A stretch of DNA of 64,000 bases from assembly GCA_900073065.1 (NCBI GenBank), contig FJOG01000013.1, positions 1,361,674-1,425,673 of the forward strand. The letters are read 5' to 3'. How positions within the stretch are numbered: position 1 is the first letter of the stretch; the number at the start of each line of letters is the position of its first letter. Below, one piece after another: positions 31,232-64,000 of this stretch. This DNA comes from Phialocephala subalpina. Lineage: Eukaryota > Ascomycota > Leotiomycetes > Helotiales > Mollisiaceae. Below the pieces are notes generated by a model. It did not search any database and was not told the DNA's origin. It saw only the letters and a program-made list of their open reading frames with translations. Position numbers and translations under genes: made by a program.

Positions 31232-31542
31232 GGTGCTGTCCAAGTAATAATTTGGCAGACTATATACATATGGTGAAAGAGCGCTGGGACGGTGAACATG
31301 GTCATGCTTGTGCATCGCAAATCAATCAAGCGAATTTCAGGAATCGTGCTCTGATTCTATTCAACGCAACTATGGAGGAGGTGGTAATGAAACTAGAGGT
31401 TCATAAATCCCCGAAAACCCTCGTGGTGTGTTACGAAGAGCGAGTCGAAGCGGCGTGGCGTGGGCTTGTAGAAACTGGGGAACTCAAACAAGACCAGGTC
31501 ATTTGGCTTGAACGGCATGAGCAAGGAGTGGTGTTCGGGTAA

Positions 31543-32060: not shown

Positions 32061-32657
32061 ATGAACGCGGGAAGCAAGGAAGTTGAATTTAAGAGAATGG
32101 ATGACAATATAAATGACTGCAAATGGCCAGTGGAGTCGAAGGAAATCATGTATGGGATTAAGGCAGACGAGGGTGGGCGGTTCGGAAAAAGCGAACTCAG
32201 CATTGATCTAACATGTATAGAAATCCTTACTGCGGTCCCGAATGATCGGAATCGTGCCTCGATCACAAGTCTTCCCAACGAGCTTCTAATCCAGATATTA
32301 CAGCCGGTTGGACCAGCTGCCTCAGCATGTGTGGGACTTGCATCCAAGATAATCTACACCGTTCATCGCGAAATGTACGGTAAAGTCGCGCTCAGGACCT
32401 CTCAAAATCTGTACCCAGGACAATGTCCCAACCAAGACTCGCACTTCAACGTAGCCCTATCAACCTATTTTCTGAGCTGGATGTCGCCAATGACCCTTTA
32501 CATCTACAGGTTAGACATGTTTGTGGACAAGAAGACGGTCTGGCAAGGTGGTTGGAGGTCGGCCGAAGATGCTTGTCGGATGGTGCAAAAGTACAAGGAC
32601 GAAACTCGCAAGGAGCTTGTGAAGTCCTGGGAAGCCGTTAAGCTGGGAGTTAAATAG
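32061..32657 (+). CDS. F-box-like array member 10
   Basis: One exon from ATG 32061, 198 residues. A long charged N-terminal linker (about 70 residues) precedes ITSLPNELLIQILQPVGPA, SACVGLASKIIYTVHREMYG and a diverged tail in which FFPGL has become FLSWM, followed by DMFVDKKTVW. The C-terminus is a Lys/Glu-rich helix (KYKDETRKELVKSWEAVK). An unspliced intron near 32215 (a GTATAG donor) cannot be ruled out. Confidence 0.66.
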   Translation: MNAGSKEVEFKRMDDNINDCKWPVESKEIMYGIKADEGGRFGKSELSIDLTCIEILTAVPNDRNRASITSLPNELLIQILQPVGPAASACVGLASKIIYTVHREMYGKVALRTSQNLYPGQCPNQDSHFNVALSTYFLSWMSPMTLYIYRLDMFVDKKTVWQGGWRSAEDACRMVQKYKDETRKELVKSWEAVKLGVK

Positions 32658-33179
32658 TCGGGGTTAGTTGAGAACGTAGTTCGATAGGTGGTTTGATTAA
32701 TTTTGTTGAGTTAGTGTCATTCTCTGTTCGAGGATCAACACTTAGCATAGTACAATAACGCTCAATAACACATCCCCATGATATCTGAACATCGTTTTTA
32801 CTTACTTATTTCAAAGTTGAGTCGATTTAACCTTACATTACACCGAGTTGAGTTAGTATCTATGTTGCCTGGCTTTCTTTGCATGTCAATAAGAAAGCAG
32901 ACAAGTGCCTCGTTCCTCTGGTATGTTCCACTCTAGGACCAGATGGATTCCGTCCGAACAAGGATAACATCATGAGCACCAAAAAGCTACGGGAAATCGC
33001 CTCATCGTCTGATCTTTTGGCCTCGGGGGGATTACGGACGGAAAACTTGCTCCTTGGTACCGAGTGGGGCATTCACCATTAGCAAAGCGCGTTTTCAACT
33101 TCTACCATACTTTCTCGAAGAGCCTTGATCTCTTCGCCTTGCGCAAATACTAACGAAGATCGATCTGCTTCCAGTCAAG
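32658..33179. other. Intergenic between array members 10 and 11
   Basis: Nothing recognised; the frame at 32879-33082 has no family features. Confidence 0.35.
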
Positions 33180-33864
33180 ATGGTTGATCAAGATCTTGAA
33201 AGCATTATCTCTCGAATTGCGTCGTTAAGCCTTGCAGACCCTCTGACACCAGATGTGACAAAGATGAAGAAGAAGCGCAAGATCTGCCTACCTTGCGACC
33301 AGGGACCTGTCCTTCAAGTTTCGCGTCGTAGAGCTGTCTCAAAGCAAAAGGCTTCAGCTGGTAATTGTACAACTCTTCCTTCGAAGGTCCTTGTTAACAT
33401 TCGAAACAGATCGAACTCCCAAGCTACCCCTTCACATCACCCGAATTCCCCCAGAGCTTCAGCTCTTGATCTTCGATCTTCTCGATCCAGTCTCTTCCAC
33501 CTGCTTCGGTCTCACATCCAAGTACTTTTACAACATTCACCGCGCCAGTCACGGTTCCGTCGGGCTGTGGGAACGCGATTCTCCTGAAGCGCGTCTCCAG
33601 CTTGGTGACATCCTGACTTCGTGGATTCCCAAACAACTAACTTACACGACTTCAGCTTCGAGATTTGTCGAGAAGGTAGCAATGAGAGATGGGAAGAGTA
33701 TTCTTGACGAATGGGATGATGAACCGAACTGGTCGGTTAAGAGTTCTTGGAATGAGGGGGCAGTGGAACGTAGGAGAGAGTTTCGGGAGGAGGAGTGTGG
33801 GTTTGTGAGCGATGATGAATATGATGAGATTGAGGGAAGTCGGAAAAGGAAACCTAGAGACTGA
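33180..33864 (+). CDS. F-box-like array member 11
   Basis: Exon 1 (33180-33360) and exon 2 (33410-33864) flank a 49-base intron and encode 211 residues. Exon 1 is a basic linker (KMKKKRKICLPCDQ). Exon 2 holds ITRIPPELQLLIFDLLDPV, STCFGLTSKYFYNIHRASHG and a shortened WIPKQLTY/RFVEKV segment in place of FFPGL/KFVT. The C-terminal 70 residues are strongly acidic and basic in turn (REFREEECGFVSDDEYDEIE, then RKRKPRD). The splice join restores frame exactly between the linker and the F-box block, which is strong support for the intron. Confidence 0.74.
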
Positions 33865-34131
33865 TCAGTGATCGTCTTTCCTGACAGAGTGTAGCGATAA
33901 GCACTGGGTGGGGGTGGAGGAGAAGAAAGGGTACGGGATGGAAGGGTTACGAGGTAGATGTCTCATGATGTAGATAGGTACTACTAAGGTAAGTCAGTAG
34001 GTAGGTAGCAGCAAAAATGAAGCCGGTGAACCACGAATACGCTGCTGACCTCGTATCCATTGAACAACTCTACGTCGAGCCACGTCGAAGGCAGCTAGTT
34101 GCATGCAATGCAAGCATACGAGCACCAAGTT

Positions 34132-35029
34132 TCAAGACCTCTTCATGTACCAAGCCAAAGCACCAACACCAACGACTCCCAAAACCAGAACCACCTTCTT
34201 CAAGACTCTTCTCGCTGAGATCCCCAATGAAATGTTAATCCTCTTCTGCAACTCAGCCGCATCATTAACCCTCGGAAACTCCACATCCGGAAAGTCCGCA
34301 CCCAAGAAATCGCACAAAGGCCCCCAACCATCCTTCAATCAAAGGCCAACAACCTCTCCTCCGGACACCACTTCTTCACATTGTCGTAGTGCTCTTGATA
34401 GGTCCGCCTCGCATTCTCCTCTAGCTCCTTCTGATTCTCCGCCTCAAACCACCCCCTAACCATCAATCTAGTCATAATCTGAAACTGCCCAAGATAATGA
34501 TAATCCATCATCGCTATCCCATGCATCACTGGCCAGAAAACGTTGCTGGACACTGTTTTCTGGAAAGACTTATACCAGGACTCAATTTCCCTCTCGACGA
34601 GGATGGCTTTGGCTTCTGGGTATGCCTTGATTAGTTCCTCAGAGAAGGCGATGCATGGCCAATCTGATAGTCCTTCATATTGACCTAGTAGATTATCGAA
34701 TTCCTCCCTTCCAAAGGGTGTGCTGTCGGATTGAGGCCACCATTTGTCTCGCATGCCTTGCTGCCACATCACGAGGTCGCGGGATTGAGTGAATATTGTG
34801 AAGCCGTGGGCAAATGGTTTGACACCCAGGATTTCGAGAGCGTGTTGGAGTGCTCGAGAATATCAGTAATTTTTCGGAATTTGAAAGGTGACCGAATGGC
34901 TTACAAGTTGTTCCAGTTCGTACCATGCTCAAGTTCATGACTATCATTGGCACTGTTCGTTTTCGAGTCCGAGGGTCAAGTTGGTGATCCTCCTCGAATA
35001 ACTCGGGGTATTTTTTCGTAGTCGGTCAT
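34132..35029 (-). pseudogene. Sulfotransferase-like (Sulfotransfer_4) protein, two frameshifts
   Basis: Recognisable P-loop sulfotransferase-like protein of the fungal Sulfotransfer_4 type. It has a phosphosulfate-loop equivalent VRTGTTSLQHALEILG across an intron, FGREEFDNLLGQYEGLSDWP, FSEELIKAYPEAKAILVERE, the paired SWYKSF motif, then KDGWGPLCDFLG and a C-terminal membrane anchor (VVLVLGVVGVGALAWYMKR). The start ATG is at 35029. An A6 run (35011-35016) puts the first codons out of frame with the rest. A second one-base shift near 34335 ends the main frame at LLAFD just before KDGW. Between the two shifts the frame is clean. Both breaks are one-base differences, so this is either a recent pseudogene or an assembly error. 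It sits between two members of the F-box-like array and has no relation to them. Confidence 0.75.
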
Positions 35030-36273
35030 CGTGGGAAGAATCGTTGCCAACCTCACAAAATAGAATACAAAGAAAGCGAGCTCCGAAAAACTCGACCGTT
35101 GAAGCTCTAAGTGAACAGAAAAAAGAGTTCGAAGTCTGAGGAGATATCTCAGAGGATCTGAAGTGTTCAAGTATACAGTCAATTAGGGAACGAGATTTAG
35201 CGTCAGCCCCAAACCTCTGCCGATCATTGGCTGGGTTGCTGACCAGCTACTGCTGTCAGCAGCACGGTCGCAACATCGCACTGGAATTGGCCACTCTTGC
35301 CGGGGGCTTACATGCATAACTCGGTAGGGCTATGAGTAACAGTCGAGATTGGTGAACGAACCCAAGGTTTCGCGACAAAGGATGTGCCAAGAGAGCGCGA
35401 GACAGCTACAATTTGGGTCTTTACCTGCTTGAAGCCTTCTTATTTGGGGGCGGAGTTGATAAAATGATTAGGAACGAACGAGAACAATACTATAAAACGT
35501 ATCGAGTCTACAAGGGCCGGCTTCGGACTTTCTAGAGAATGGATGAGTCTTATTGGTCGTCTAATAGGCTTGAAGGACCTTCCATGAAATGAACTTGAAA
35601 CAATTCAAAGCGACGAGAAATTATTTTCCCTGTTGCCTTGCTTATTGCATGAAACAATTGTTTGTAGATTTCACCAGCTGGGAGAATGAGGTGGTTGTTG
35701 ATGAAAGGCACTGCTCGGTCACGAGTCCTAAGCGAGATCAAAGACAGGGGTCACGAGGAGGTAGATCACGAGGTCCCTCGAAGCAAGAAGACAACTGGTC
35801 ACAAGCACAACCAATCATGCGCCCTTCTCGCTCATGAGGCTCAGGCTGAGCGACAAGGTTGAACTGGTGATGAGGCTGTGGTTGTCGCTGATGCAGCCTG
35901 GCGAGCTGAAATGGTCATTGGGTCGTGTTGATGGCTGCCATGTTTCCAACCTTGTTGACTCCTTCTTCATTTTCGTTGCGACGGAAAGCAAGAACTGAGG
36001 TATTCCGGAATGTTTCGGTGTGGATGGAGATGTAAGATGGGGAGAGATGTGACTTGCTCTTGTGGTGCACTGCAATCGTGGAGGTGTCTGCCGCTGGGTG
36101 TATCGAAGAACTTCGTCCTATAAGAACGGGACTACAAGAAGATTAATTCTGGAGAAGTGAAATTCGACGCATAGGAATCTACCACGTATATTGTATCAAA
36201 TTTTCCAGCAGTAGAACATTATCTTTCAATTCCAAGTTCCCTTGGACTGTACCTCTCGAGCCCTGGTCCCAGC
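35030..36273. other. Intergenic, nothing recognised
   Basis: Short frames on both strands without family features. The final part is the probable promoter of array member 12. Confidence 0.4.
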
Positions 36274-36927
36274 ATGTCATACTCCTACTATTCCTCGTAT
36301 CGTCCCTACAAGGCACCGTTAGAACCGCCTAGAAGGAGATGGGGACTGAGACGCACTTCAACCTCGTTGAAACCTTCGCATTGGCAGGCTCGCCCTTCGA
36401 TTTCAGCTTCTTTGTTTTATCACACTCCAAGAAGTGAGTAAGCCATCTCCTCCGGATTTTCAAAGTTATAAATTAACAGAAACAAAGGTCGGTCGTACTA
36501 CACCCCACCAGAACCTCCTCGCCAGCATCGCCACAGATCCCGGCTCACAGACCTCCCGAACGAGTTGAAGCTGAATATCATCGAGACTTTAGATCCCGCG
36601 TCTTCAGCCTGTCTTGGACTGTCCAGCCGTAAACTATACCCTCTACACCGTTCCGTCCACAAGAATGTTGGGTTGTACGAGCAAAGTCCTGACAGCCGGG
36701 TTCCGCTGGCATTCAAGTTGAGGAGTTGGATGCCGAAGGATTATGCACTGGATTGGCAGAGCGAGAAGTTTGTAAAGAGAGACAGGTTGGCGGGGTTGGA
36801 AGCGGAGAGGAAGAGGGAAAGAGATAGATACTGGGATGAGAGGAGAAGGTTGTGGGTGTGGGATGATGATTATGAGGATCGTGATCGTGATCGTGGGGGG
36901 AGACGTCATAGAAGAAGGAGACACTGA
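36274..36927 (+). CDS. F-box-like array member 12
   Basis: Exon 1 (36274-36433) and exon 2 (36488-36927) join across a 54-base intron to give 199 residues. The linker is Tyr/Ser/Pro/Arg-rich (MSYSYYSSYRPYKAPLEPP). The core reads LTDLPNELKLNIIETLDPA, SACLGLSSRKLYPLHRSVHK, then SWMPKDYALDWQSEKFVKRDR. The C-terminal 50 residues are a run of alternating Asp/Glu and Arg (DYEDRDRDRGGRRHRRRRH), like an RD-rich low-complexity tail. It lies about 2.4 kb beyond member 11, past the sulfotransferase relic, and marks the right edge of the array. Confidence 0.75.
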
Positions 36928-37514
36928 GCGAGATCTCGATGGCTTTAGCGTGAGGAGTTTTGTATGGATTGCATTGATTGGCGTTATGGAGTTTGTATCT
37001 TACTTCTCTATATGTCCGGTGCGTTATGGGGATATTGTGATCGAACTTTGTACAATATAGCTTTGCTCTGTCATCTGGTGATGATCAAGGAGGATGGTTG
37101 ACTTTGACTTAGACAACTTCAATGCAAGCAACATCAAATGAACCACACCAAAAATAAGAAGCGGCCTTGAGACGATATTCTGTGCAATGATCTAAAGACA
37201 ACTGGAGCGTCGCCGCATAAATGCAAGACTGCCACTGTGCCAAGGCGTGCATGAAGTTTCAGACGTCAGACGAATGGCTAGCATCGTGTCCTTCTTTAAA
37301 GTTCAAGCCGAGACTCGACCCCTCAGCTTTCACTTGAGGCCGAAAGACGATCGGGACCGAGATGAAGATCCTTGTCACACCCGCCTTCGTCTTGACGATA
37401 TAAACGGCTTCTCGAAGCATACCCCACGACGCCCAGGTTCCAACAAGCACCAGGTGACATTACTCATTGTCCGTTGAAGCCTCCAAATGCTCCAAACCTG
37501 TATCGACTTCCATT
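36928..37514. other. Intergenic, nothing recognised
   Basis: Open frame 37247-37477 has no family features; it may be the decayed 5' flank of the MetE-like relic. Confidence 0.35.
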
Positions 37515-45026: not shown

Positions 45027-46834
45027 ATGGCCTCGTCAAGATCATCACTCGTTCCATTTCTGGCCCTCTTGGCTTCATCTCAAGCAGTTACCTTCGATTA
45101 TGTTATTGTTGGTGGAGGAACGAGCGGTCTTGTCATCGCCAACCGCCTCTCAGAACTCGCAAACGTGACGGTTGCTGTCATTGAAGCAGGCGCTTCGGTC
45201 TTCAACAATCCTAACGTCACAGACGTTGGAGGATATGGACTTGCATTTGGTACCGACATCGATTGGGCTTATCAGAGTACCAACCAGACATATGCAGGAG
45301 GCGCAAAGCAGACCCTGAGAGCTGCGAAGGCAGTTGGTGGGACGAGCACCATCAATGGTATGATAAGCTTTACGTTCTGTGGGCGACGAGACTGACTGAG
45401 CTAGGCATGGCATACACCCGTGCAGAAGATGTTCAAGTTGATGCTTGGGAGCTTTTGGGTAACGCTGGATGGAACTGGGACTCGTTGCTTCCATACTACC
45501 TCAAGTCCGAAGACTTCACAACCCCAGCTGCGTTCCAAATCGCGGATGGAGTCACCTACAATCCAGCTGATCACGGCACATCTGGTCCGCTTGATACGGG
45601 ATATACTTACGGTATGGTCAACGGCACTGTTGGCAGCACCATCAACGAAACGTATGCCAATGTTGGCATTCCGTGGAATTCGGATGTCAATGGTGGGAAG
45701 ATGCGGGGACTTGCAGCACACCCAAAGACAGTCAACGTAATTGCCAATGTTCGCGAGGATGCTGCAAGAGCGTACTACTGGCCTTTCGCAAACCGCACCA
45801 ATCTTGTCCTCTTTCAAAGCACCTTGGCAAACAAGTTGGTCTGGAAGAACCAGAGCGACTCCGGGTCAGTTGCTCAAGGAGTAGAGGTCACCACGTCAAA
45901 TGGCACAATCTCAACAATTTATGCCGCAAAGGAAGTCATCCTATCTGCTGGAGCACTTCGCTCTTCTCTGCTCCTCGAGCTCTCTGGCGTTGGCAACCCT
46001 GATGTCCTCACTCCCCTCAACATTCCTGTTGTGGTTGATCTCCCAACCGTGGGCGAGAATCTCCAAGACCAAATGAACAACGCCTTCGTCTTCGGCTCGA
46101 ACACCACAGTCTCCGGAACCGATGGATTCGTCACCTACCCCTCAGCCAGCGATATCTTCGGCAACAATACTTCGTCTTTCGCATCGTCCATCTCATCCTC
46201 TCTCTCAACCTACGCTACCGCGGTCGCAAACGCAAGTAACAACGTCGTCTCCTCCAGCGATCTCTTGGACTTCTTCCAGATCCAATACGACCTGATTTTC
46301 AACTCCAGCGTCCCTCTTGTGGAATTCTTCAACACTGCAACCAGTTCTATCTTCGACATTGAGTACTGGATCTTGCTGCCTTTCAGCCGAGGAAATATCC
46401 ACATCAACTCGAACAATGCGACAGCGGCAGCGACCATCAACCCTAATTACTTCATGTTAGACTTTGATCTCGATGTCCAGGTCGCAGCGTCGAAATTCAT
46501 TCGCAATACCGTTATGGCTTCAGCACCAATTTCTCTGGAGGTCACTGGTGAAACCAGTCCAGGCACGACCGTGCTGCCAGCTAATGCCACAGATGCGGAA
46601 TGGAAGGAGTATATCAAGGGGGCTTTTAGAAGTAACTTTCACCCTGTTGGAACGGCTGCCATGATGCCGAGAGAGAAGGGCGGAGTGGTTGATACCAGTT
46701 TGAAGGTGTATGGGACGAGCAATGTGCGCGTTGTGGATGCTAGTGTCTTGCCGTTCCAGGTCTGTGGTCATTTGACGAGTACTTTGTATGCTATCGCGGA
46801 GAAGGCTGCGGATCTGATCAAGGCCGAAATGTGA
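45027..46834 (+). CDS. Secreted GMC oxidoreductase (glucose oxidase/aryl-alcohol oxidase-like)
   Basis: Exon 1 (45027-45357) and exon 2 (45405-46834) flank a 47-base intron and encode 586 residues. A signal peptide of about 20 residues ends in SSQA, directly before the FAD-binding strand VTFDYVIVGGGTSGLVIANR. GMC signatures follow: AVGGTSTINGM (signature 1 region), AGALRSSLLLELSGVG with VDLPTVGENLQDQ (signature 2 region), FHPVGTAAMMPREKGGVVD and VDASVLPFQVCGHLTST near the C-terminus, with the catalytic His in the last two blocks. Many N-x-S/T sites fit secretion. The enzyme oxidises an alcohol or sugar and makes H2O2. It could support LPMO chemistry such as that of the AA9 enzyme 4 kb away, though co-regulation is only an inference. 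Confidence 0.92.
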
Positions 46835-47355: not shown

Positions 47356-49007
47356 CTAATCTACCCATTTGTATGCGAGACCTGGATGCCCTTCACGCAG
47401 CTTTGGACCTTGTTCGTCACCCAAATAACTTTCTCTCATCGAACCTCCCACCTTTTCATAATCATCCCAAAACAACCCTCTCTTTCTCAGTTCTGGCCAC
47501 AAATATTTGATCATGTCCTCAAACCCGCCTGAGATATCGCGTACGACAAATTGAATCCATCAATGCACGCGATATCAACCCAATTCTGCAGAATATCAGC
47601 TACAGTCTGAGGGGACCCAATCGCTCGTGGATGAGCCCCGCCAATCGCGAGCTCCTGCAGCACTCGTCGACGCGTCCATTTCACCCCATCAGTACCTGGT
47701 ATCGTCGCTGACCATGTATTTACCATGGATTGAATAGCGCCGCTTCCGGTGAATTTGAAGTCCTCGTCCTCGCCGTACTTCGATAAGTCATGATCGGTCC
47801 AGCCACCGAAAAGAGCTGCGGTACCCTCGAGATCTGCGTATTGGAGATAGCTCTGGTACTTTGCCTGAGCCTTTTCGTCCGTCTCATCGACTATGACGAG
47901 GACGCCAGCAAGGAGCTTCAAGCTGCTTTTGGGCCTCCCATGCGCCGCCAATCGTGCACTTATGGTCTCATCAGCTGCGTATCCTCTGAATGCGACATTC
48001 TACGTACCGTATGTCGTCCGCCTCCTTTCGGACCTTGTGTGGCTCCAGGCCAGGAAGAAACATGGCTTCTGAATGCTTTGATGCAAAGTTCTTGCCCGCG
48101 CTAGAGGCACCTGCCTGGAGAATGAATGGCGTACGCTGAACTGAAGGGTGGAGCTGGTGAGTAGCCTTGATCTTGAAATACTTTCTGACTGGCCATTAGC
48201 GTTCCACATTGCACAAGTCTAGGGAGAATCGTCTGCCACCTACCCACTGTGCTCAATTGCTCGAACTCTGTCCGAAGCGCTATACCTCCCCAATGCTGCA
48301 TCCATTATTCTCGAATCCTCCTTCCAGCTTCCCTCGAGTATCTTATACACCACTTCCAAATATTCCTCTGCTCGTTCGTATCGCTGGTCGTGTGGAATTT
48401 GCTCATCGAAACCAAAGGCTTTGGCTGCGCTGTCCAAGTACGATGTCACGATATTCCATCCTACACGTCCTTTGATGAGATGGTCGAGGTGGAGAATCTT
48501 CTGGCAGTCGCATACGGATTCTCATAAGTCGTTGAGGCTGTGACGGCAAAGGAGAGTGACTTTGTTGCTGCCGCCATGGCAGATATGAGCAAACTTGAAG
48601 CCCGTGATCAGCATTGATTCAGCAGAATCAAAAAAATGACATTACAATGGGTCACCAAGTGGGAATTGTGCTCCTGATTCTAGTGCTGGCACGCTGTTCC
48701 CTGGGCCTTTGTATACATCGTAAATACCCAAGTGGTCAGCCAGGAACAGACCATGAAACTTCCCAGCTTCAAGTATCTTTGCAAGATCCGTCCAGTAATC
48801 CAAATCCGAGTAATCTCCTGCTCGGTCTTCTGGATGTCTCCACTGGCCTGCGGACATTCAGTCAGTCCCGGCTCAACAAGAGATCTTTCCAAATGCGTGG
48901 AAGGCTGTCAAAAATGGCATGATTGTATTACCTGGTGAAAGATGTCCTGGGGTAAACATCGCGAACGCATTCATGATCCATTTCTTTTTGGGGCTCTGTA
49001 CTGCCAT
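47356..49007 (-). pseudogene. NtaA/SnaA/DszA-type FMN-dependent monooxygenase, two frameshifts
   Basis: The family is clear from MAVQSPKKKWIMNAFAMFTP, HPEDRAGDYSDLDYWTDLAK, GLFLADHLGIYDVYKG, TASTTYENPYATARRFST, GRVGWNIVTSYLDSAAKAF, TPFILQAGASSAGKNFASK, ALFGGWTDHDLSKYGEDEDF and MIKYLWPELRKRGLFWDDY. This luciferase-like class uses FMNH2 and O2 to open rings or cleave C-S/C-N bonds in xenobiotics and sulfonates. Several normal introns can be drawn (for example a 59-base one near 48250-48190 and a 49-base one near 48000-47955). Two one-base deletions remain that no intron explains: one between ARRFST and LDHL (about 48490) and one between YAIS and FEDM (about 47525). The copy is therefore probably dead. 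Confidence 0.75.
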
Positions 49008-49294: not shown

Positions 49295-50200
49295 TCAGGC
49301 AATTCGACCAGCGCCCAGAGGCGTCCAAATTCCGGCATCTATGTCCTGCTTCAGGCGACTCCTGAGTTCCTCTGACGCCATAGGATTTCCAGCCCGCTTC
49401 TTAAACCATTCTTCCTCCTCTGGCGTGTTTTGTCTCCCGAAGTAGGCGTTTTTATAGGGATAACGCCCAAACTTGTCCACGAGGGGCTTATGAAGGTCCA
49501 TGAGCTTGCACATCCAATACGCATACATCTGGACTGTCGCCTCAGCACCAGGTGGTCCTTCTTTGAGCATCACGGGAACACCATAAATGTCAGACAAAAT
49601 GAAATCTCGCTCCGCACGGTAGGGATCAATGGTCGCAGTCTCTTTTTCGACGACATTGCGAGTCTCTTCGGTGAATAAAAGCGCGCGTTCTGAGTCTGAT
49701 GCCTCGTCTGAGTGGACAAACGGGCAGATATACCAAGTTCGGGCAAGAACCCAGAAGTCGAGCATAGCAAATGTCTTCCAGCGACTCCATGCCCACGGCT
49801 TCTGCTCCTCGGATAGCGTGTCTAAGGTATGCGCATATTTTAGACTGATGACATCGAAATATGCGCTTCTCCAGCGGCCGTCAACGCCTCTTAGTAAGGA
49901 CCTGGTCATCTGGTCGAGAAGTAGCTGCAGTCCTAGGGCCTGGCGTGGAAAATGGTCATCGGCGATGGGTGGGAGGAACTGCAAAAGATCGGGTACAGAT
50001 GCCAGCTCAAGCTTGCTGAGAGCCTTTAGAACTCGCCAGACGCGCTCAACCAATTCGCTGGGGATTGGTGCTTTGCCTTTAAACTGCTTCTGGCCAACAT
50101 CTTCAAAGTCCAGCGGCTCTGTCATAGAGAAAGGGAGCTTGGCATTGACCAGCGACTCAAAGAGTTCAGGGGTAAGAAGAGTGCTTAATTGATCGGCCAT
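49295..50200 (-). CDS. DUF924 family protein
   Basis: One exon, 301 residues from ATG 50200. The DUF924 core is present: FPRQALGLQLLLDQMTRSLL, YFDVISLKYAHTLD, RAERDFILSDIYGVP and KPLVDKFGRYPYKNAYFGR, with TPEEEEWFKK following. The family is alpha-helical and TPR-like and widespread in bacteria and fungi, with no established biochemical role. It carries a fungal N-terminal extension of about 50 residues (LSTLLTPELFESLVNAK). It lies next to the RiPP-like locus, but nothing in its sequence ties it to peptide modification. Confidence 0.85.
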   Translation of the reverse strand: MADQLSTLLTPELFESLVNAKLPFSMTEPLDFEDVGQKQFKGKAPIPSELVERVWRVLKALSKLELASVPDLLQFLPPIADDHFPRQALGLQLLLDQMTRSLLRGVDGRWRSAYFDVISLKYAHTLDTLSEEQKPWAWSRWKTFAMLDFWVLARTWYICPFVHSDEASDSERALLFTEETRNVVEKETATIDPYRAERDFILSDIYGVPVMLKEGPPGAEATVQMYAYWMCKLMDLHKPLVDKFGRYPYKNAYFGRQNTPEEEEWFKKRAGNPMASEELRSRLKQDIDAGIWTPLGAGRIA

Positions 50201-50934: not shown

Positions 50935-51744
50935 TCAAGCAGGGAACGGCTCTATAGTAACAATTTTACCCTGATCCCGCATTGTCTTAATCAGAGAGCG
51001 GCTATCTCCACATTGCCGAACGTCATGCGTACCATCAATTGTCCAAGACCTACTGCCATTATTTAAGAGCGATTCTCGTTCGATAGTGCCATCCGCCCAA
51101 CACAATATAGTCTGTATATTGTTAAATTCATTGGCATCTTCAAAATGATTGTGGAAAACTTGCCTTTCTCAGGTAGTCCATACAATGCGGCCAGTGTGTA
51201 TTATCCTTTTGGTCCAATCCAGGATCTTTACCTTCGCGGGCCATTTGTATAGCATGCCGAAGGCTAGAGAGGCAATGTAGTTGGTGGAACCTTATGAATT
51301 ATCAGTCTGTGAATTTTCACAACCAACGTCTTTTGTGGCAGTTACTTACATCGAAAATGCTCCTGGCACTAGCTCACCGTCGGAATCATCGTCTGGAAGG
51401 AGAAGCACTTGAGATTGGCCATCTTGGTTCTCCCACAGTGAATCGTACTTGTGATCTACTGACATCAAGGCAGTATTGTGACCATATGCAGCCTTGAACA
51501 CCTTGTTGGCCTGGGAGCTATTGCCGTTACTCTGCAACTGCAATTGCTTTAAGATTGCGACCATGAAGATTGCCACGGCGGTGGTCGATAACGCGCAATA
51601 TACTAACAGACATGTTGTTGTAATGCTAAGACCGAAACGCCTTGAGCGACGTAGAGTTACTGGAGAATACAATGAGGAAGAGTCATCTGGCATTAGGTGC
51701 TCATTAGAGGAGTCCTCGGAGGAAACGCGATCGTACTTGGCCAT
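50935..51744 (-). CDS. UstYa-family (DUF3328) protein, RiPP cluster member A
   Basis: Three exons (51744-51350, 51290-51164, 51111-50935) join to 232 residues. The N-terminal cytosolic tail MAKYDRVSSEDSSNEHL precedes one transmembrane segment (about 37-65, ITTTCLLVYCALSTTAVAIF). The lumenal domain carries the two UstYa histidine motifs, HQLHC (134-138) and HWPHCMDYLR (164-173), then CWADG. In ustiloxin, asperipin, phomopsin and related pathways UstYa-type proteins are copper-dependent oxidases that cross-link aromatic side chains of the precursor peptide; this one has every motif expected. Intron 2 has a GC donor (AAG|GCAAGT). It is transcribed in the same direction as the precursor gene 1.4 kb away. 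Confidence 0.88.
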
Positions 51745-53100
51745 ATTCGTTGTCAATAGTAGTTGAGTCGACCACGAGAAAAAGAGAATTCAGGGAGAAT
51801 GCAATTGCATACAGTCGGCAGTGAGCAGAAAGGGATGAGGAATGGAGCCGAACTTCCTCGGGACCTTACCCCTAAGAGGATGGAAGGCGTGATGAGGCGT
51901 AGAAATAGCACGACTCCCAACATTTGACCACTTGACCAATTTGCAACTCTTTACAAGGTGGACTGGGAAGAACTGGCATCCGGGGTGGAGGCTGTGTAAA
52001 AATAAGCATGGCCCCCAACATTTGGCTTGACCAAGTTGTAATTCTTTTACTTGGTAGACTAGGAAGAGCTAAGATACGGCGTAGATGCGGCGTGGAAGCG
52101 GCGTGGAAGCGGCGTGGAAGCGGCGTAGATGCAGCGTGGAAGCGGTGTAAAGCACGACTCCTAGCATTCAACTGCTTGACCAATAAGTATTGTTAGATCG
52201 TGACCCCTCCTATATGACAATAAGTTATGATTCTTTACAAGGTAGATTGGGAAGATGATGCGGGGTAGATGCGTGTAACAATAAGCACGGCCCCCAATTT
52301 ACAAGGTGGACGGGAAAGAGAGCTGGAATGCGGCGTGGATGTGGTGTAGCAGTAAGCATGACCGCATTCAACTACCGGTACTCCGTACATAACGGACAAT
52401 TATTCACACCTTAACAAACGATAACCGCCCCAACCACGTTTCAAGGCCAAAATAGCAACCCTTTACATGTAAGCCACCATGCACTTGGCGTATCTCAATT
52501 TGCACTTTTTTGTGGAGCAAGTAAGATACACGCCTGCATGCCTGGTTAGATACCGGTAGTCAGAGAGAGGCGTTCCGGGAGCGGAGCGCTCCGCAAGCAG
52601 AATCTACCAACTGCCCAGGTACGGCTGACACAGTGACCCGTCGAGTCATTTGAGACCACGTAGGTGAAGGTATTGACGACGTCTTTATTCCTGGGGTACA
52701 AAGGCTGACGGCATTCGGTAGGAAATAAACACAACCAATTGCAAAAGACTCTCGCTTAGTCTAAGAAGTTTGGGTCTAATTGCATTTTCCCATGTTGTTT
52801 ACTAGCGTCTTTATAGGATTTTGTCTCAAAAGGCTAATGTCAAAATTTCCAACTAGTCTGAAAGGCAGTTGTAGTGGAATGTTGCAAATATTGAGGTGAA
52901 GAGACTCGACAATAGTTTGAGCTGGTAGTATATTTTGTGATAGGTATAATCAGAATTGTCTAACTACTTCCAGAGCTCAATTTTCCATTCGCCTCAGTCC
53001 TCAGAATCATCCAGAAACTCAACTAAATACCTGAAATAATAGCACCGAGTTCGGGGGTCGGAAAGTAGCCTCGCCTCGCTGACTACTCACCAATCTTGAT
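51745..53100. other. Intergenic between UstYa A and the precursor gene
   Basis: Holds the degenerate repeats listed separately, the promoter of UstYa A, and the 3' flank of the precursor gene. No additional gene seen. Confidence 0.4.
51895..52375. repeat. Degenerate tandem repeats between the first UstYa gene and the precursor gene
   Basis: At least three diverged units of roughly 110-150 bases recur. Each contains a variant of CCCCCAACATTTG, a CTTGACCAA segment, an AAGGTGGACTGGGAAGA-like segment, and a run of GGCGTGGAAGC or GGCGTAGATGC. Inside, the short unit GGCGTGGAAGC is itself repeated several times (about 52080-52110). No coding potential is obvious. Confidence 0.6.
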
Positions 53101-53708
53101 CTACTTGTCTTCGACAGCATTGTTGTCGTTGTACTCTATACGAGCCCATTAGCTTCTTTCCTATTTTCAGCGGCATGGTGTCTCAATCTTACCAAGGGAC
53201 GGCAAGTCACGCTTGTCTTCGACAGCGTTGTTGTCATTGTACTCGAGGGCTGGCAAGTCCCGCTTTTCGACAGCGTTATTGTCATTGTACTCGAGGGCTG
53301 GCAAGTCCCGCTTTTCGACAGCGTTGTTGTCATTGTACTCGAGGGCTGGCAAGTCCCGCTTTTCGACAGCGTTGTTGTCGTTGTACTCTAAAGGATTCGG
53401 CGCATTAGCTTGGTTCCTTGTGCTCAATAACATAGCGTCTCAATCTTACCAACGGATGGAAGTTCCGTGGCACGCTTGTCTTCGACGGCATTGTTATCAT
53501 TGTACTCTGTACGAGTCAGTCTCTTAGCATGTTTCTGGTGTTCACTAGCATAGCGCCTCAATCTTACCAAGGGACGGCAAGTCACGACGGGTCTATAATA
53601 TGATTAGCGTACCCGATCGTTCCCAGGTGGTAGTGTTAGGCTTACTGGTTGAGGAAGAGCGATAGCACTGGCCGCAAAAAAGAAGTTGATCAAAACGGAG
53701 ATCTGCAT
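53101..53708 (-). CDS. RiPP precursor peptide: signal peptide and six YNDNN repeats with dibasic cleavage sites
   Basis: Five exons (53708-53646, 53592-53568, 53506-53450, 53387-53193, 53135-53101) join to 124 residues. The start MQISVLINFFFAASAIA is a classic secretory signal. After LPQPT and RR come six repeats, each built from DLP[AS]LE or ATELPSVE, then YNDNN (Tyr31, 50, 66, 82, 98, 115), AVE and a terminal KR or DKR (the last ends DK). Dibasic KR sites are the targets of the Golgi protease Kex2, so each precursor would release up to six similar peptides of about 14-16 residues. This is the layout of UstA-type precursors of dikaritin RiPPs, where UstYa proteins cyclise a short Tyr-bearing core. 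The core here, probably in or around YNDNN, matches no product I know. Three introns fall at the same phase-1 position inside the Glu codon before Tyr. The four UstYa-like genes around it support the assignment. Confidence 0.87.
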
Positions 53709-54378
53709 GATTGCGAGAGTAGACGATGAGACACTGTAGTTTAGAAGTGAGAAGTAGAATTGTAGAGTTTCTGGAGTCTTGTGATGATTCGAATCGAAAG
53801 CTCTTGGATTTTCAAGATTTCACGAATTTGAGGGCAGATATCCGGGGCTTTAAAGTATTCAATCCAAACTTGTGGCAAGGTAGAAACGCATGCCCATAGT
53901 AGATTGGATATAGTCTAACGGAAAAGAAGTCATGTGTCGGTATCCCCAGGGACTAGTGTACAACTTGCTAGCTTGGCCGGCAAATTGCAAATTGTAATAG
54001 TCAATGATGTGCTAAGTGGCAGTGATCAACCTTGTCCGAAACAAGTTGTTTCTCACTAGTCTCGTCGTGTCTTTTGCAACCCTGGAGCATAAACTGAGAA
54101 AGTCAGCATGGACCCCATTCCACGCCGCAAAAGCAAAGCGGCGTGTATCCAATGGGTGACGCAAGCAACGGTCTAGAGTACCGTTGTTGGAGTTTTCAAA
54201 CCCCTGACCACAGGATATTTCATTCTCACCATGGGTATGAACCAACCTCAGCAAAAATGGCATGATTCGTGCACTGTGCCGCAGTTGCATGCTGATCTTC
54301 GTCGTGCTGATGCGAGAAAAGTCTTTGGTTATCCCTCTCTTCGCTTGAGATGGGTTGTGATTTCCCTTAGCATCCATC
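53709..54378. promoter_or_regulatory. Divergent intergenic region between precursor gene and UstYa B
   Basis: The 670 bases separate the precursor start (minus strand) from the UstYa B start (plus strand), the usual position for a shared cluster promoter. A minus-strand open frame at 54012-54545 overlaps UstYa B and has no family features. No binding motif could be assigned. Confidence 0.4.
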
Positions 54379-55532
54379 ATGAAGGATACTGAGTACAGCA
54401 AAATTCCGAGCCCCTTAGAGTCGAGAGACTCAACCTCCGATGGTGGCGATGAGGAGGGACAGACCTTGCTCTTGGGGAAGACATCATCGAGAGTTGAACA
54501 TCGACCAACGAGAAATTTCATGATTATAATATCATCATTAAACATTGTTGTCTTTATCTTCTCAAGCTTGCTCTTCGGAACGTGGTTCTACAGCAACTAC
54601 CTTGTTCTCAACGCGAACTTCAGGAGAACCTCAGCGTACAGTAAAGCCCCAATTCCATGGCAATTTTTGCCAAATTGATTGTATTATGAGTATTAATTCT
54701 CAACAGCGCCCCTTCATGACCTTATACGCCTCGATTCACAGGTCAAGAAGATCAATGGCACCTTCTGGCCACCAGAGAACCCATCAATTGCCCGACAAAT
54801 CAACAATGAGACAGAAAGTCAATGGGAGGAGTATGAAAAGAATAGAATCATTCCCGTGACAGCAGCGCAACTTCGAGGAATGGGTGTAGACCCTTCGACG
54901 GCTGCCAAGCTAGATGATGAAGAATGGGGTCTTGGCGATGACGCTTATGTGGCAGCTTTTGATGTTTATCACCAACGTGAGTGTTCTCCGAGGGATATTT
55001 TCTAGATTGTTTGAGGGGTGACGAGACATTGTTTCCCTCCCAAGACATCTTTATTTTCTTGACAGATGCCTCCCAGACAAGTCCCAAAGAAGTTTTACTG
55101 ACTCTGAGACTCTCTCCAGTCCATTGCTTGAATACTCTCCGACAGATAGCATATGGAGACCTCTATCCTAAAGTTTCAGGTGGTCGTGAAAAACCTGTTT
55201 GGAAATTTCACGTTGACCACTGTGTCGACATACTTATGCAGGAGCTCCAGTGCAGTGGCAATCTCAACCTTGTCACTTATCACTGGGTTGAAAACCACGA
55301 TAGGCCCTTCCCCATGTTCGGTATCAACCGGCAGTGTGTTGACTTTGAAGCCTTGACGCATTGGCGTGTTGAAAACACGCTTGATGTGCACAAGTACAAT
55401 AGCATGGTCAGGAAGCCGCTCGGAGCCAAACAGTTGCCCGCCGCAGACGACTGGTACAAGTATAGAGCCCCGGAACTTACGAACCCTAATCATCTTAACG
55501 GAGATAACCCTGATGAGAAGATCATCTTGTAA
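54379..55532 (+). CDS. UstYa-family (DUF3328) protein, RiPP cluster member B
   Basis: Three exons (54379-54640, 54707-54976, 55120-55532) give 314 residues. A 45-residue acidic tail (SDGGDEEGQTLLLGK) is followed by a transmembrane segment (about 47-70, IIISSLNIVVFIFSSLLFG). The lumenal domain has NGTFWPPENPS, then a conserved acidic run (DDEEWGLGDDAYVAAFDVYH), the first motif HQLHC (176-180) split exactly by intron 2, and the second HVDHCVDILMQ (208-218). A long C-terminal extension (VENTLDVHKYNSM onward) is characteristic of the larger UstYa clade. All expected histidine/cysteine residues are present. It is transcribed away from the precursor gene from a common intergenic region. Confidence 0.9.
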
Positions 55533-55977: not shown

Positions 55978-56703
55978 CTATCTCGTCTTTGGAAAGCCAC
56001 ATTTGCCATGTAATGCATGTATTTTTGTCTTCTTTCCATCCCGATCATGCCAAAGGGTCATGTTCACACAGTGTTGCGTATGCTCGAAACTATATATTGA
56101 CACCTCGATCGGCCGTCCCGTTTTGTACGCCCGTAATTGCATATCCATCAGATAAACGCAGTGCCGAAGATGGAACTCCCCGTCCGTCCAAAGAGTTCTA
56201 TACTCTCCACGCCGAGCTTCTTCCTCGGGGATCTCATGCAGCATCTCCTCATCATGAAAGTAAGTGTGGTTTCCCTCTCGAAGATACCTATTCATCACCT
56301 CGCCGTCATGGCAGGACTCGTGAATCCATGTTGAGAGCATAAGGTCAAACACACAGCCGCGGTCGAGGGCCTCTGGCGCTGTTTGACCACAGTCGATCCA
56401 TTCCGAGAAGCCCTCGCTGGGGTTTTCTGAGGCATTGAGGGGTCTCAAGTTGTGATACTCGATGTGGCTGCCTTTGTTGGCAAAAACGATGGCAATGAGG
56501 CTGCTCGACATTACGAGAAGCAGGAAAGTGGCGAGAACATGCAGGTGGGAGATCCTTCGAGACCGAGACTGGAAGTGCAGTTGAGAGGTTTGGGTTTGGC
56601 CCATTGCTAAGTCATCCTCTTCATTGGAGCTCAGTTTCTTGTAGCCGCCGCGCAAGCTCTCTTGCAATTTTGAGAGTGAAGCCGCTTGTTTGAGAGCCAT
56701 CAT
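55978..56703 (-). CDS. UstYa-related protein, RiPP cluster member C
   Basis: One exon, 241 residues. Cytosolic tail, then a transmembrane segment (about 53-75, HLHVLATFLLLVMSSSLIAI). The lumenal part begins with the variant block CVFDLMLSTWIHESCHD (117-133) and has two H-x-x-HC motifs, FHLRHC (177-182) and HTQHC (208-212). This W-x-x-x-x-C-x-D block marks a sister group of UstYa often found beside fungal RiPP or toxin clusters; whether it oxidises peptide is untested. Its last residues, HALHGKCGFPKTR, complete the conserved C-terminal Cys pattern. It faces UstYa B tail to tail. Confidence 0.8.
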   Translation of the reverse strand: MMALKQAASLSKLQESLRGGYKKLSSNEEDDLAMGQTQTSQLHFQSRSRRISHLHVLATFLLLVMSSSLIAIVFANKGSHIEYHNLRPLNASENPSEGFSEWIDCGQTAPEALDRGCVFDLMLSTWIHESCHDGEVMNRYLREGNHTYFHDEEMLHEIPEEEARRGEYRTLWTDGEFHLRHCVYLMDMQLRAYKTGRPIEVSIYSFEHTQHCVNMTLWHDRDGKKTKIHALHGKCGFPKTR

Positions 56704-58962: not shown

Positions 58963-59400
58963 CTACCACGTGAGCTCCAGCCTGCAACGCTCACTTCCCT
59001 CCTCACTTTCATCAGCCTCTTTCCACTTTTCAATCCCACCACTCACACCCTCAGCACCAACTTCCCAGCTCCCACTCCCCACCATCTGAACCCAGTGATC
59101 TAAGACTCGGAAGAGCTCCACTTCATCCCTCAAAATGAATGGGTTACAGCTCGTCTGATACAAACCAGTTGCCAGGCCTTCTCCGTCGTCATTCTCCAGA
59201 ACAAATCCGTCAGTGCTTCTTGCGTGATGTTTAGTGTCTTCTCCGTCTCGATCGGTGATGTTTCGTGGGAGAAGCAAGCGACATGCATCGTCAAAATCTC
59301 CGCCTTCAGGCATGCTTTCACTGACCCAGAGTCCAGAGGGGTATGAATCTACGGGCGGTTTTTTAGGCCATAAAACTCGCACATACTGATATATAATCAC
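58963..59400 (-). other. Open frame at the edge of the AT-rich block, possible truncated gene
   Basis: A 145-codon frame has normal coding composition on the GC-balanced side: PEGGDFDDACRLLLP, then FILRDEVELFRVLDHWVQMV, with an acidic C-terminus (ADESEEGSERCRLELTW). It has no start context of its own, and its beginning coincides with the abrupt transition to almost pure A/T sequence. This could be the 3' end of a gene whose upstream part was lost or mutated in the AT-rich compartment. I do not recognise the family. Confidence 0.35.
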
Positions 59401-60123
59401 AAAATTATAGAATCATGGAAATTTAAGAGTAATATCATTGAATTTTATAAATCCATTATTACTTTTAATATAATAAATACTTTAGAATAAAATAAAGTTA
59501 TTAAATTAAAAAAATATAATAAAAAAATATAAATTAAATTTAATAAATAATATTATATTATTTTATTAAAGAATTTATATAATTATATTATAAATATTAT
59601 AATAATATTTTTAATAATTTAAATAAATTTTATAAATTAAATCTTTTTTATTATATATAAAATTAAATTTTTTAAATAATAAAATTTTTATAATTCTTTA
59701 TAATAATTTATATAAATTTATATATAAAATAAGAAATCTTATAAAAATTAATTTAATATTAATTTAGTTTATATTTTTGTTAAATATATTTTATTATATA
59801 TTATAAATAATAATTAAATTTTTATAATTAAAATATTTCATTATTTAATTAATATAATATATATATATAATTATTATTATAATATTTAATTAAAAAAAAT
59901 TTAAATTTAATTAAAAAATAAAAATAAAATAATATATTATTTATTTTATTATATAAACAATTTTATAAATTTTAATTATTAGAAATTATTAATATTATTC
60001 CAATGTAAATAATACTAATTATTAAATTTTTAGCGAAGTTTTCATAACGTTACTATTATAATAACTCCTTTCACTTAAAATTTATAAGTTTTATAAAGTA
60101 TTAAGTATTGCTTTGAAGGGTTC
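59401..60123. other. Extremely AT-rich block
   Basis: About 700 bases with almost no G or C up to near 60060, made of runs such as TATAAATAAT. The composition switches sharply at about 59400. It encodes nothing and is more extreme than ordinary intergenic DNA here. It may be heavily RIP-mutated repeat, centromere-like or organelle-like sequence. Confidence 0.85.
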
Positions 60124-60139
60124 TATATTTCCTTGCAAT

Positions 60140-60720
60140 NNNNNNNNNNNNNNNNNNNNNNNNNNNNNNNNNNNNNNNNNNNNNNNNNNNNNNNNNNNNN
60201 NNNNNNNNNNNNNNNNNNNNNNNNNNNNNNNNNNNNNNNNNNNNNNNNNNNNNNNNNNNNNNNNNNNNNNNNNNNNNNNNNNNNNNNNNNNNNNNNNNNN
60301 NNNNNNNNNNNNNNNNNNNNNNNNNNNNNNNNNNNNNNNNNNNNNNNNNNNNNNNNNNNNNNNNNNNNNNNNNNNNNNNNNNNNNNNNNNNNNNNNNNNN
60401 NNNNNNNNNNNNNNNNNNNNNNNNNNNNNNNNNNNNNNNNNNNNNNNNNNNNNNNNNNNNNNNNNNNNNNNNNNNNNNNNNNNNNNNNNNNNNNNNNNNN
60501 NNNNNNNNNNNNNNNNNNNNNNNNNNNNNNNNNNNNNNNNNNNNNNNNNNNNNNNNNNNNNNNNNNNNNNNNNNNNNNNNNNNNNNNNNNNNNNNNNNNN
60601 NNNNNNNNNNNNNNNNNNNNNNNNNNNNNNNNNNNNNNNNNNNNNNNNNNNNNNNNNNNNNNNNNNNNNNNNNNNNNNNNNNNNNNNNNNNNNNNNNNNN
60701 NNNNNNNNNNNNNNNNNNNN
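60140..60720. other. Assembly gap (581 N)
   Basis: A run of N at 60140-60720 marks an unresolved gap inside the AT-rich compartment. Confidence 0.99.
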
Positions 60721-63700
60721 GCTCTTACTATTTACCAGCTTTTCGCCAGTCATCTTATCAATGGAAAACGCAACCCCCATGAGTTATTATTTTTCTGTGC
60801 AATTATCCTTCGTCACGTCCTATGATATCGTACTTTATGGACGCCCTACAAATGCAAAAGGCTATTTGACCGCGAATCAACTACAAAATGGCTATCGTTC
60901 ACCAATCGCATATTTATTTTTATAAATAATAATAAGTCTTTTACGTATAAATTCTCGAAGAAATCTCACTTCTATTAGACTCAGTTTATCAACCATAACT
61001 CTCTCTTTTCGTTGGATTATTTGAGCTAACGAAGTTTGTAATCATTGTATATTACCGCTTATATTAGTGATATAACCTTCATAGTATCGCTAGGTATAAG
61101 GTGGCAAGGTTTAAATTCCGGAGGCAAGTTTAATAAAGGTAATTCTAGGAGAAAAAAAGGAAATAAATAGGGTACAAGTAAAGGCAAAGGAAGAAGCAAA
61201 GCAAGAGGAAGCAAACGTACTCTCTATCGAAATATCTAATAAGGAGGACGCTACCGGTTTAATACAAGATATACTTTTTCCTACGATTTATCAAACTCGA
61301 ACGAGCACGAATCTCCATTGCAACCCTGCGAAAGATTAGTAAATACCCCTGAGCAATAATACGTGAAAGAGGGTTATAATTCATAGAAGAGGCTTATTAA
61401 GATTCCGTCGAAGAGAAACGATATCAGAATAATTAAATTATTATATAATAGCGTACTCACGATATTAAACGCAAACAATTGAGATTAGAAGCAAATGCTT
61501 CCACGAGATTTAGATAACCAAGAGAATTATAACTATAAATATATTTAGATACTCTTAAGTATAATAATATATACTTATGGATATAATACTTTTATTGCTC
61601 TCATATAACCCTTCCTCTTGGTTATTACCCATTAAGCCCTATTAAACTACTTATTTGTCGATATTTTCGTCGGAGGCTTATATAACTTTATTAGTAATAA
61701 TAACGAGACGCGAGCAATTCCTTTCTTCTAATGTCTTAATATAAACTTGATCGAGATATACTTCGGATTTATCGTCTCGGAATCATTGGTTAAAATAATA
61801 CTCATCGCGATATTAACTATTATCCGCGAGCTACTAAGAAGGGAAAAGCAAGTAACTTTTCATGATAATCTTTTAAATCTAATCAATTCGTTAGAAAACG
61901 CCGCGAATATTATTGGTATAAATAAATAATATATAGCGTTTTAAATTATTATTAATCAAATTAATAAGTTTCGAGTAATAATAACGTGTGCGAATAACCT
62001 TTTTAATTATAAGGAGGTGCCACGGGTAAATAGTATTTTAATTACTATTGTAACGTTAATTTATCCTCGAGATATTATCGTATTAGGAGATCGCTACGAT
62101 AACGATAATACTAATATTACAAAAATCTAAATCCTTCTAATTGAAATAGAGATTCGAAGCAACTTTCTAGAATTTTTACTTTTTACTAATCTCGATTAAC
62201 CTTATTTTCTTAATGATTAAACGGCGCGTTACCTCAATATATATTTCCGTTTTCTTTATTATAATATTTTTAGTGAATTAAAAAAAGACTCTCAAAGAAA
62301 TAATAATTGCTATCGAGAATAATCCAATATTATTCTATAATAAGAAACTTAGCCTTAGAAATATACGAGCTTATTTCTATGCCAAGGCTTATCAAATATA
62401 TCTCGTTCGATTAATAGCGAGGCTTAGAAATTAAAACTTCGTTTGATTAATTATTTGCTTTGCGGAAAAAGCCTCCCTTTAAAAGACGCAAGTAGTGGGA
62501 AGAATCAAAACGCTTAGAAGAAGGCGTTCTTCTATGCTTCGTTTCCGTTATTAATAATAAAAACTCGCTTTTATTCTTTATAATCAATGAGAAGTATATA
62601 GATCCAAAAAAAGATTATAGTTTTAATTCCTACGAATATAACTCGATAATTATTACAAAGCTTATAATACAAAATCGAGTTAACATGGAGTTAATAACTC
62701 AATTGAGTTATCGTAATATACAAGAAGCCTTAATAAAATTCCCTAGCGTTATACTCGTAACGTTTATCCCGATTCTCGAGAATCTTTAGGATATATAACG
62801 CTTGAGCCGCTTGCCATTCTATCAATGGATTCTACCAGACCTAATTACTATATTTAGGAAAGGTTTAGAGCTTCTTGATATTCTGCTACCACTTTACGCT
62901 CAAGCTCCAAGCTTTGTCTTCTCGCTAGATTCAATTCTAAAGGAGGCCGACGGTAGCCTTTCTATGAACTCGAGAGTACCAATTAATAAGCTTGCCGCAC
63001 GAGATCGATAGTTTGCCTTCCTAAATTCAATTCTGGATAAACTTGAGCCGGATAGTCGCATCTCTCTGGACCCGAGAATATCAGTCGATAACGTTGCCAT
63101 CATTAATAAGTTTAAAGCGTAAACAGAGTTCGATTATAGGCAATGCCAAGTAGGCTACTGTGGCGGGGCGATTTGTTCTACTTCAAAAATCCCTATTTGT
63201 AGTAGTAATTTCGGAGGTTTGTACTAGCCACGTATCCTCTAGTACATAAAGAGCTTTCTATTCTCTGAGAAACAATAATAACTTTCTATTATTCTATTTT
63301 ATTGGCCTTACTACGTATAACGAATAATTATAAAAGCAAAGTCAAGTATTTACTAAAGCTTATAAGTTTATTATAATCATGCAAAATTAAGTAGTTTTCT
63401 TCTAAGAGAACTATTACCTTTTTATATTAGCGAGCGAAGCCGAGAGTCTTAAAGTAGTACTATTTAAACGTTACGAATTATAGCTTATAAGAATTGTATT
63501 TTAAGTATTATAATTATTATTAAAGAATTCAAATTATTGGAATTCGAAGGCTAAAAATCAATTAACGAAAAGTAAACCCCTTTATTTATTGATTTATCGA
63601 TTTAAAATTAAAGAAATTAAACTACGAAATAACGAGATTGCAAAAAAGCGCTAATTCTTAGAATTTACGTGTTAAATTATTCGATATAATCGGTATAATA

Positions 63701-64000
63701 GCGAATAAAAGAAAAAAGAGAATTAATTTACGATAATTAAATACGAAAATCAATTTTTAAATTAATATTATTTTTATTAAAAATCGAAATACGAATATTA
63801 AAGATTTATCGTAGAAATAAAAAGAAATTCATATTTTAAAAAGCGAAATTATAGCGTTGTTTTATATTTTAATTTTAACCTTTTTAAGAATCGCGATATA
63901 AAGAATACTCGGAATAATTTTAATATTAAATTTGTAGTAATTTAAAGAATATTAATATTTACGAAGAAACACGAAATAAATTTAAATAGAAGTTTTTATA
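60721..64000. other. AT-rich, RIP-like compartment without genes
   Basis: From about 60930 onward the sequence is dominated by TpA, with CpA and TpG scarce, the expected signature of repeat-induced point mutation. No open frame over 70 codons appears and none resembles a gene. Two diverged copies of a segment (about 62920-63000 and 63010-63115) share GATTCAATTCT-like and ATTAATAAG-like ends. The area is best read as mutated transposon debris. Confidence 0.65.

Follow-up and report, generated by a model that had tools for sequence, protein, structure and literature searches.

A candidate dikaritin-type RiPP precursor gene with six EYNDNNAVE repeats, flanked by UstYa genes, in Phialocephala subalpina

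Introduction

The closest described systems to the locus treated here are the dikaritins or ust-RiPS (ustiloxin, phomopsin, asperipin-2a), in which a precursor with a leader, Kex2-type sites and short Tyr-containing repeats is encoded adjacent to UstYa genes. Cross-linking by the UstY enzymes is described as relying on a dicopper site and oxygen, and in asperipin-2a the UstY makes an ether between the Tyr oxygen and the beta-carbon of Phe (PMC12186524). The motif of ustiloxin and phomopsin is given as EDYXI in one paper (PMC6339444) and as YXIX in another, which describes a bond between Tyr and the Ile at position +2 (PMC7329392). A narrow early definition of the dikaritins had a tyrosinase, a methyltransferase and a transporter or peptidase in the cluster, and functional clusters missing one or more of such genes were reported later (PMC12048977). 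In Venturia inaequalis, nine dikaritin clusters are reported (PMC9632046).

Two other groups are similar. The epichloecyclins, derived from GigA of Epichloe, also come from an endophyte, with imperfect repeats, likely Kex2 processing and a Tyr in the core, and differ by their Tyr to Ile cross-link and nonapeptide cores (PMC9233826). Kex2-processed repeat proteins that work without UstYa, such as the alpha-pheromones, share the leader and the repeats separated by dibasic sites. Here we describe a gene in a stretch of 64,000 nucleotides (the window) from the genome of Phialocephala subalpina, a root endophyte of the Helotiales, for which an earlier note had proposed the same plan as in UstA-type precursors. 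Leader, Kex2-type sites, Tyr-bearing repeats and UstYa neighbours are all present.

Structure of the precursor gene

The gene consists of five exons on the minus strand, from position 53708 to 53101 of the window, and its spliced translation has 124 amino acids. All four introns have GT-AG borders. The parts are as follows:

53646 to 53708, minus strand: exon 1, start codon and hydrophobic leader MQISVLINFFFAASAIALPQP (from translation, gene finder and hydropathy)
53593 to 53645, minus strand: intron 1, 53 nt, after the leader
53568 to 53592, minus strand: exon 2, TRR site and first DLPSL (from translation and gene finder)
53507 to 53567, minus strand: intron 2, 61 nt, within the Glu codon before YNDNN
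53450 to 53506, minus strand: exon 3, YNDNNAVEDKR-ATELPSV (from translation and gene finder)
53388 to 53449, minus strand: intron 3, 62 nt, at the same site of the repeat as intron 2
53193 to 53387, minus strand: exon 4, four YNDNNAVE units in a 48-nt tandem repeat, with no introns between the units
53136 to 53192, minus strand: intron 4, 57 nt, at the same site of the repeat as intron 2
53101 to 53135, minus strand: exon 5, the last YNDNNAVEDK, followed by the stop codon

The earlier note had claimed a 124-residue frame over five exons, and the same five exons were picked by a home-made codon-plus-splice gene finder that received only the region and the strand as input. Eight further ORFs from the window served to train its codon scores; since the splice-site weights were set after the precursor gene was known, the gene finder is not fully blind. 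The model scored 33.8, and none of 100 dinucleotide shuffles exceeded 8.7; chance is a poor explanation of the gene model and the repeats.

Introns 2, 3 and 4 resemble each other (47/63, 42/61 and 44/63 identities in the three comparisons, each beyond 200 shuffles) and have a common start, GTAAGATTGAG. Intron 1 is not above the shuffles when compared with introns 2 and 3; against intron 4 it scored 8.5, with a shuffle maximum of 5.5. Because introns 2 to 4 share their site, their start and a likeness beyond that of shuffles, the intron was most likely carried along as the repeat spread; the units in exon 4 are intron-less.

The precursor protein

The encoded protein starts with a hydrophobic leader, residues 3-18 having a mean Kyte-Doolittle value of 2.24 (a measure of hydropathy only). 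It is followed by RR at residues 23-24, in agreement with the earlier description of an RR site after residue 22, and by six units of the form (D or ATE)LP(A/S)(L/V)EYNDNNAVE, with YNDNN at residues 31, 50, 66, 82, 98 and 115. The units close, in order, with EDKR, EKR, EKR, EKR, EDKR and EDK-stop, so that the six YNDNN repeats with KR or DKR closures and a final DK are as the note had read them. Kex2-type dibasic sites thus precede the first unit (RR) and separate all units (KR or DKR). Each of the six units carries one Tyr, always with Asp at position +2. Residue counts gave no Ile in any of the repeats and no Trp or Cys in the whole protein.

At the nucleotide level, Tandem Repeats Finder gave a 48-nt unit in 3.9 copies with 95% matches. 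A degenerate 24-nt pattern for YNDNNAVE, allowing one mismatch, matched six times in the 68-Mb genome, in all cases exactly and within the precursor gene; the same pattern run backwards as a control had no match in that genome. All five variable sites within the six 24-nt units are at third codon positions and are synonymous, which has a probability of 0.0013 if the sites are independent, whereas the flank of the block varies in residues (A/S, L/V). Since changes inside the block are synonymous while flanking residues vary, the pattern argues for selection acting on YNDNNAVE, with the reservation that the sites are few and that Asn and Asp codons favour silent T/C changes.

The composition of the repeats also bears on the sub-type. 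The ustiloxin/phomopsin sub-type with its Y-x-I-x core was considered and rejected, as Asp instead of Ile occupies position +2 in all six units, and the epichloecyclin type was rejected as the Ile partner for the Tyr cross-link is missing from the repeats.

Relatives and novelty

A protein database search produced only two relatives, P0001 and P0002 (two out of 6648 candidates at E<=1, and the same two out of 37 at E<=10). These come from source lgn, where the longest contig has 1133 bases, and possibly lie on one contig; the source is presumably another fungus. All four copies of the repeat in these sequences read EYNDNNAVE, and after each comes FKR or FKKRG, then (D/E)LPASG. What comes after LPASG is variable in both length and sequence. 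As these stretches start at the position at which introns start in the window gene, they may represent introns that were left unspliced at that position. The window gene and its relatives have in common the string EYNDNNAVE, with LP on its upstream and KR on its downstream side. The proposal that the core lies in or around YNDNN is therefore borne out insofar as the repeat is kept in a second source, but YNDNN by itself is not singled out, the common block being EYNDNNAVE. The residue two before the Tyr is L or V in the window gene and S in P0001 and P0002, if these are spliced as read; not being constant between both sources, it is unlikely to be a cross-link partner.

A second copy of the precursor gene was not found in the genome, where the five matches obtained were four to this gene and one on another contig (C62) at E 3.8. 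No record of the precursor from ncbi, uniref or nr surfaced, in a search that would overlook one whose length differs greatly, and the gene is for that reason apparently unannotated. That the earlier note could not place YNDNN with a known product agrees with open-licence full text, in which the EYNDNNAVE core and its parts gave nothing relevant. Likewise, no report of the gene was found among the open-licence papers listed from the Phialocephala genome and RiPP literature. The main text of the P. subalpina genome paper (PMC5148876) has 0 mentions of RiPP, DUF3328 and Kex2. The large KEP survey (PMC7329392) lists Phialocephala under types G-2, G-3 and G-9, which implies that an assembly of the genus was included; since the survey started from annotated proteins, it would miss an unannotated gene. 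Thus, systems of this type are well known and the core sequence is apparently new.

UstYa neighbours

Two genes with matches to the UstYa family (PF11807) flank the precursor gene:

50935 to 51744, minus strand: UstYa1, 232 aa, exons 51744-51350, 51290-51164 and 51111-50935, with HQLHC and HWPHC
54379 to 55532, plus strand: UstYa2, 314 aa, exons 54379-54640, 54707-54976 and 55120-55532, with HQLHC and HVDHC

Their PF11807 scores are 63.8 bits for UstYa1 and 155.5 bits for UstYa2 (cut-off 25), and three of the 56 PF11807 pieces detected in 68 Mb lie in the window. The adjacent UstYa genes of the earlier note are therefore present on both sides, and 670 bp separate the precursor from UstYa2, which is divergent to it. 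The gene finder found no further gene of at least 80 residues in the gaps that it was given between 50.25 and 58.59 kb. For UstYa2, the third acceptor was chosen by hand. The UstYa1 model was made by hand as a whole, the gene finder alone giving other, poorer models, and an AAG acceptor at the first intron as well as a GC-AG intron are needed to read both HxxHC motifs (51290-51350, 51111-51164), in view of which UstYa1 might be decaying.

The flanking UstYa genes, together with the lack of Trp and Cys, set the precursor apart from Kex2-processed repeat proteins that function without UstYa. From the known dikaritins it differs by the EYNDNNAVE block, which has no Ile and in which Tyr is followed by Asn-Asp, and by the absence of a tyrosinase match from its contig, C112 (0 of 53 PF00264 pieces, a list which is a lower bound). 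In the KEP survey, DUF3328 genes are enriched beside KEPs, from which they are 3.09 genes away on average (Umemura 2020, PMC7329392). Taken together, we consider it probable that the gene encodes a dikaritin-type (ustiloxin-type) RiPP precursor that is secreted, cut by Kex2 and oxidised by the neighbouring UstYa proteins.

The best surviving alternative, which we nevertheless regard as improbable, is a linear Kex2-processed secreted peptide that stays unmodified and serves as a signal or in an effector-like role, with the UstYa neighbours acting elsewhere. A polar peptide without Ile would fit, as would the tyrosinase result within its lower-bound list, and in the KEP survey only 22% of KEPs have a nearby DUF3328 gene (PMC7329392). 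Against such a linear peptide stand the position of UstYa genes on both sides, one of them divergent across so short a distance, the gene models, which place no other gene between the precursor and the UstYa genes, and the presence of one Tyr in each repeat.

A second family of HxxHC proteins

Two further genes downstream of UstYa2 encode related proteins:

55978 to 56703, minus strand: P3, 241 aa, with a hydrophobic stretch, HLRHC and HTQHC; a relative of P4
57891 to 58583, plus strand: P4, 230 aa as one exon, with HDAHC and HTIHC

P3 and P4 are 30% identical (E 1.7e-12). They share with the UstYa family an N-terminal hydrophobic stretch, two HxxHC motifs and co-location, and differ in that neither has a match in Pfam (above cut-off, PF11807 included) or NCBIfam, and in that the P4 family possesses a distinct conserved block, in which C86, G87, E92, A93, G97 and C98 are invariant. 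In the 19 aligned rows of this family, H160, H163, C164, H190, H193 and C194 are also invariant. When the family was compared with PF11807 proteins by hhalign, the two HxxHC motifs aligned, with a probability of 3.6% and E 0.012. P4 was reported as 100% identical to P. subalpina PAC_09250, and in the alignment all but one of the 230 residues agree; PAC_09250 runs on past the C-terminus of P4 and is spliced there, and the gene finder drew the same last exon. Nine other proteins (P0004-P0012) are 69-84% identical to P4.

P4-like genes occur at ten other loci of the genome (11 pieces). Three of these ten loci lie within 10 kb, in fact less than 5 kb, of a PF11807 match, with 0.1 expected, and two lie within about 3 kb of a tyrosinase match, in a test that was chosen after the list was known and with PF11807 and tyrosinase lists that are lower bounds. 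UstYa or tyrosinase matches are thus found near five of the ten other loci. This association speaks for a tailoring role of P3 and P4, and makes their family a candidate marker for such clusters.

Repeat sequences also occur near some of the P4-like genes. On contig C20 (96000-105900, at about 3331-3991 within, minus strand), there is another Kex2-type repeat precursor with units EAINWIKR-(S/N)PE, which has Trp and no Tyr in the repeat; a PF11807 match is about 1 kb away from it, and two P4-like genes lie at distances of about 3.3 and 4.3 kb. On contig C116 (263000-272900, at about 7090-7450 within, minus strand), the repeats AYTGPGG and TGVSILNR, apparently interrupted by introns, occur about 2 kb from a P4-like gene on a contig with no listed PF11807 match; this is possibly a second precursor with an intron in the repeat, the gene model being unreliable.

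Cluster limits and surroundings

Beyond UstYa1, the following genes and, in the 670-bp region between the precursor and UstYa2, the following element were found:

49295 to 50200, minus strand: DUF924 protein (PF06041), possible cluster member, with AAGCGGCGT upstream
47462 to 48974, minus strand: luciferase-like monooxygenase (NtaA/DmoA-like) in a rough eight-exon model, membership doubtful
45027 to 46834, plus strand: GMC oxidoreductase, doubtful member
54121 to 54145, no strand assigned: inverted repeat CACGCCGC-N9-GCGGCGTG

The monooxygenase, in its rough gene model, scored 241 bits with the NtaA/DmoA subfamily model, below the cut-off of 280. Among the nine proteins scanned with Pfam there is no methyltransferase or peptidase.

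The inverted repeat is at the only place in the genome where CACGCCGC and GCGGCGTG were found at a spacing of 3-15 nucleotides. The sequence AAGCGGCGT is present in four of seven distinct promoter regions (precursor/UstYa2, UstYa1, P4 and DUF924) and absent from those of P3, the monooxygenase and the GMC gene; six of its seven sites in the window are in these promoter regions and one is at 31448. A 9-mer common to four or more regions was obtained with 57 of 500 random region sets and with one of 500 shuffled sets, so that AAGCGGCGT and the inverted repeat give a hint, which the random sets temper, that the genes from DUF924 to P4 may be co-regulated. Upstream of UstYa1, at 52077-52153, there are about seven tandem 11-bp copies of a CGGCGTAGAAG-like sequence which contains AAGCGGCGT.

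To the right of the cluster lies an AT-rich block (59000-64000), in which the GC content is 0.13-0.32 as opposed to 0.47 before 59 kb. Unknown bases count into the lowest of these values, and a run of them is found near 60.1-60.7 kb. The left end of the block carries AT-rich tandem repeats. Far to the left, at about 23000-37000, several ORFs have by eye a similar stretch, DP-x-S-x-x-CLGL-(8)-HR, which we take to be F-box-like, and they perhaps represent a local expansion of a gene family.

The unusual splice sites of UstYa1, the start of the AT-rich block at about 59 kb and the lack of an annotated precursor record among those that surfaced could also be accommodated if the precursor gene were a remnant in a decaying or silent cluster. 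We judge this highly improbable, as the frame is open through five exons, the core has undergone synonymous changes only, the HxxHC motifs are intact in all four neighbours and P4 is kept in nine proteins at the identities given above. A secreted structural or surface-active repeat protein, with which tandem repeats and secretion alone would fit, is hardly credible for a gene with dibasic sites at every repeat boundary and an acidic body (27 D+E and 11 K+R in 100 residues, no Cys), and the case of a structural protein without UstYa neighbours, which the earlier note had named as evidence against its proposal, was looked for and not found, UstYa genes being present on both sides.

Proposed pathway and product

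Starting from the gene structure, the repeats, the neighbours and their conservation, we infer a processing route, a modification and a product of the dikaritin type. The precursor would enter the secretory pathway through its leader, as judged by hydropathy, and Kex2 would cut after RR and KR, as judged by the sites and by comparison with known dikaritins (PMC7329392). Trimming of the basic ends would then yield six peptides of 14 to 16 residues of the type DLPALEYNDNNAVE. The computed [M+H]+ values of the predicted linear peptides are 1576.7125 for DLPALEYNDNNAVE, 1691.7395 for DLPALEYNDNNAVED, 1707.7344 for DLPSLEYNDNNAVED and 1764.7922 for ATELPSVEYNDNNAVE. For EYNDNNAVE the computed mass is 1067.4276, or 1065.4119 after one oxidation, each oxidation lowering any of these linear values by 2.0157.

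Within the secretory pathway, the peptide would be oxidised by the UstYa proteins and probably also by P3 and P4. The Tyr of the invariant EYNDNNAVE is the likeliest target, by cross-linking to a nearby beta-carbon, or else Asp or Asn would be dehydrogenated. The known cross-link cannot be transferred to this peptide, because position +2 is Asp and the repeats have no Ile; if a cross-link within EYNDNNAVE is formed, only Asn, Asp, Ala, Val or Glu can serve as the partner. It is conceivable, though in our estimation rather doubtful, that UstYa-type dicopper enzymes oxidise a Tyr surrounded by Asn and Asp only, which would lead to a cross-link from the Tyr oxygen to an Asp or Asn beta-carbon, or to dehydro-Asp or dehydro-Asn. 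Dehydroamino acids in phomopsins are reportedly installed by UstYa family proteins, according to a work cited in PMC12186524. If the proposal holds, the product would be an acidic, polar cyclopeptide of a root endophyte, with a type of linkage that is absent among the dikaritins named above.

With this locus, the root endophyte P. subalpina gains a concrete and testable RiPP pathway. When an intron lies within the repeat, a precursor can escape annotation, and hence also surveys that start from annotated proteins. A repeat that is constant in two sources and offers no Ile partner would, furthermore, probe how far the chemistry of the UstYa family reaches.
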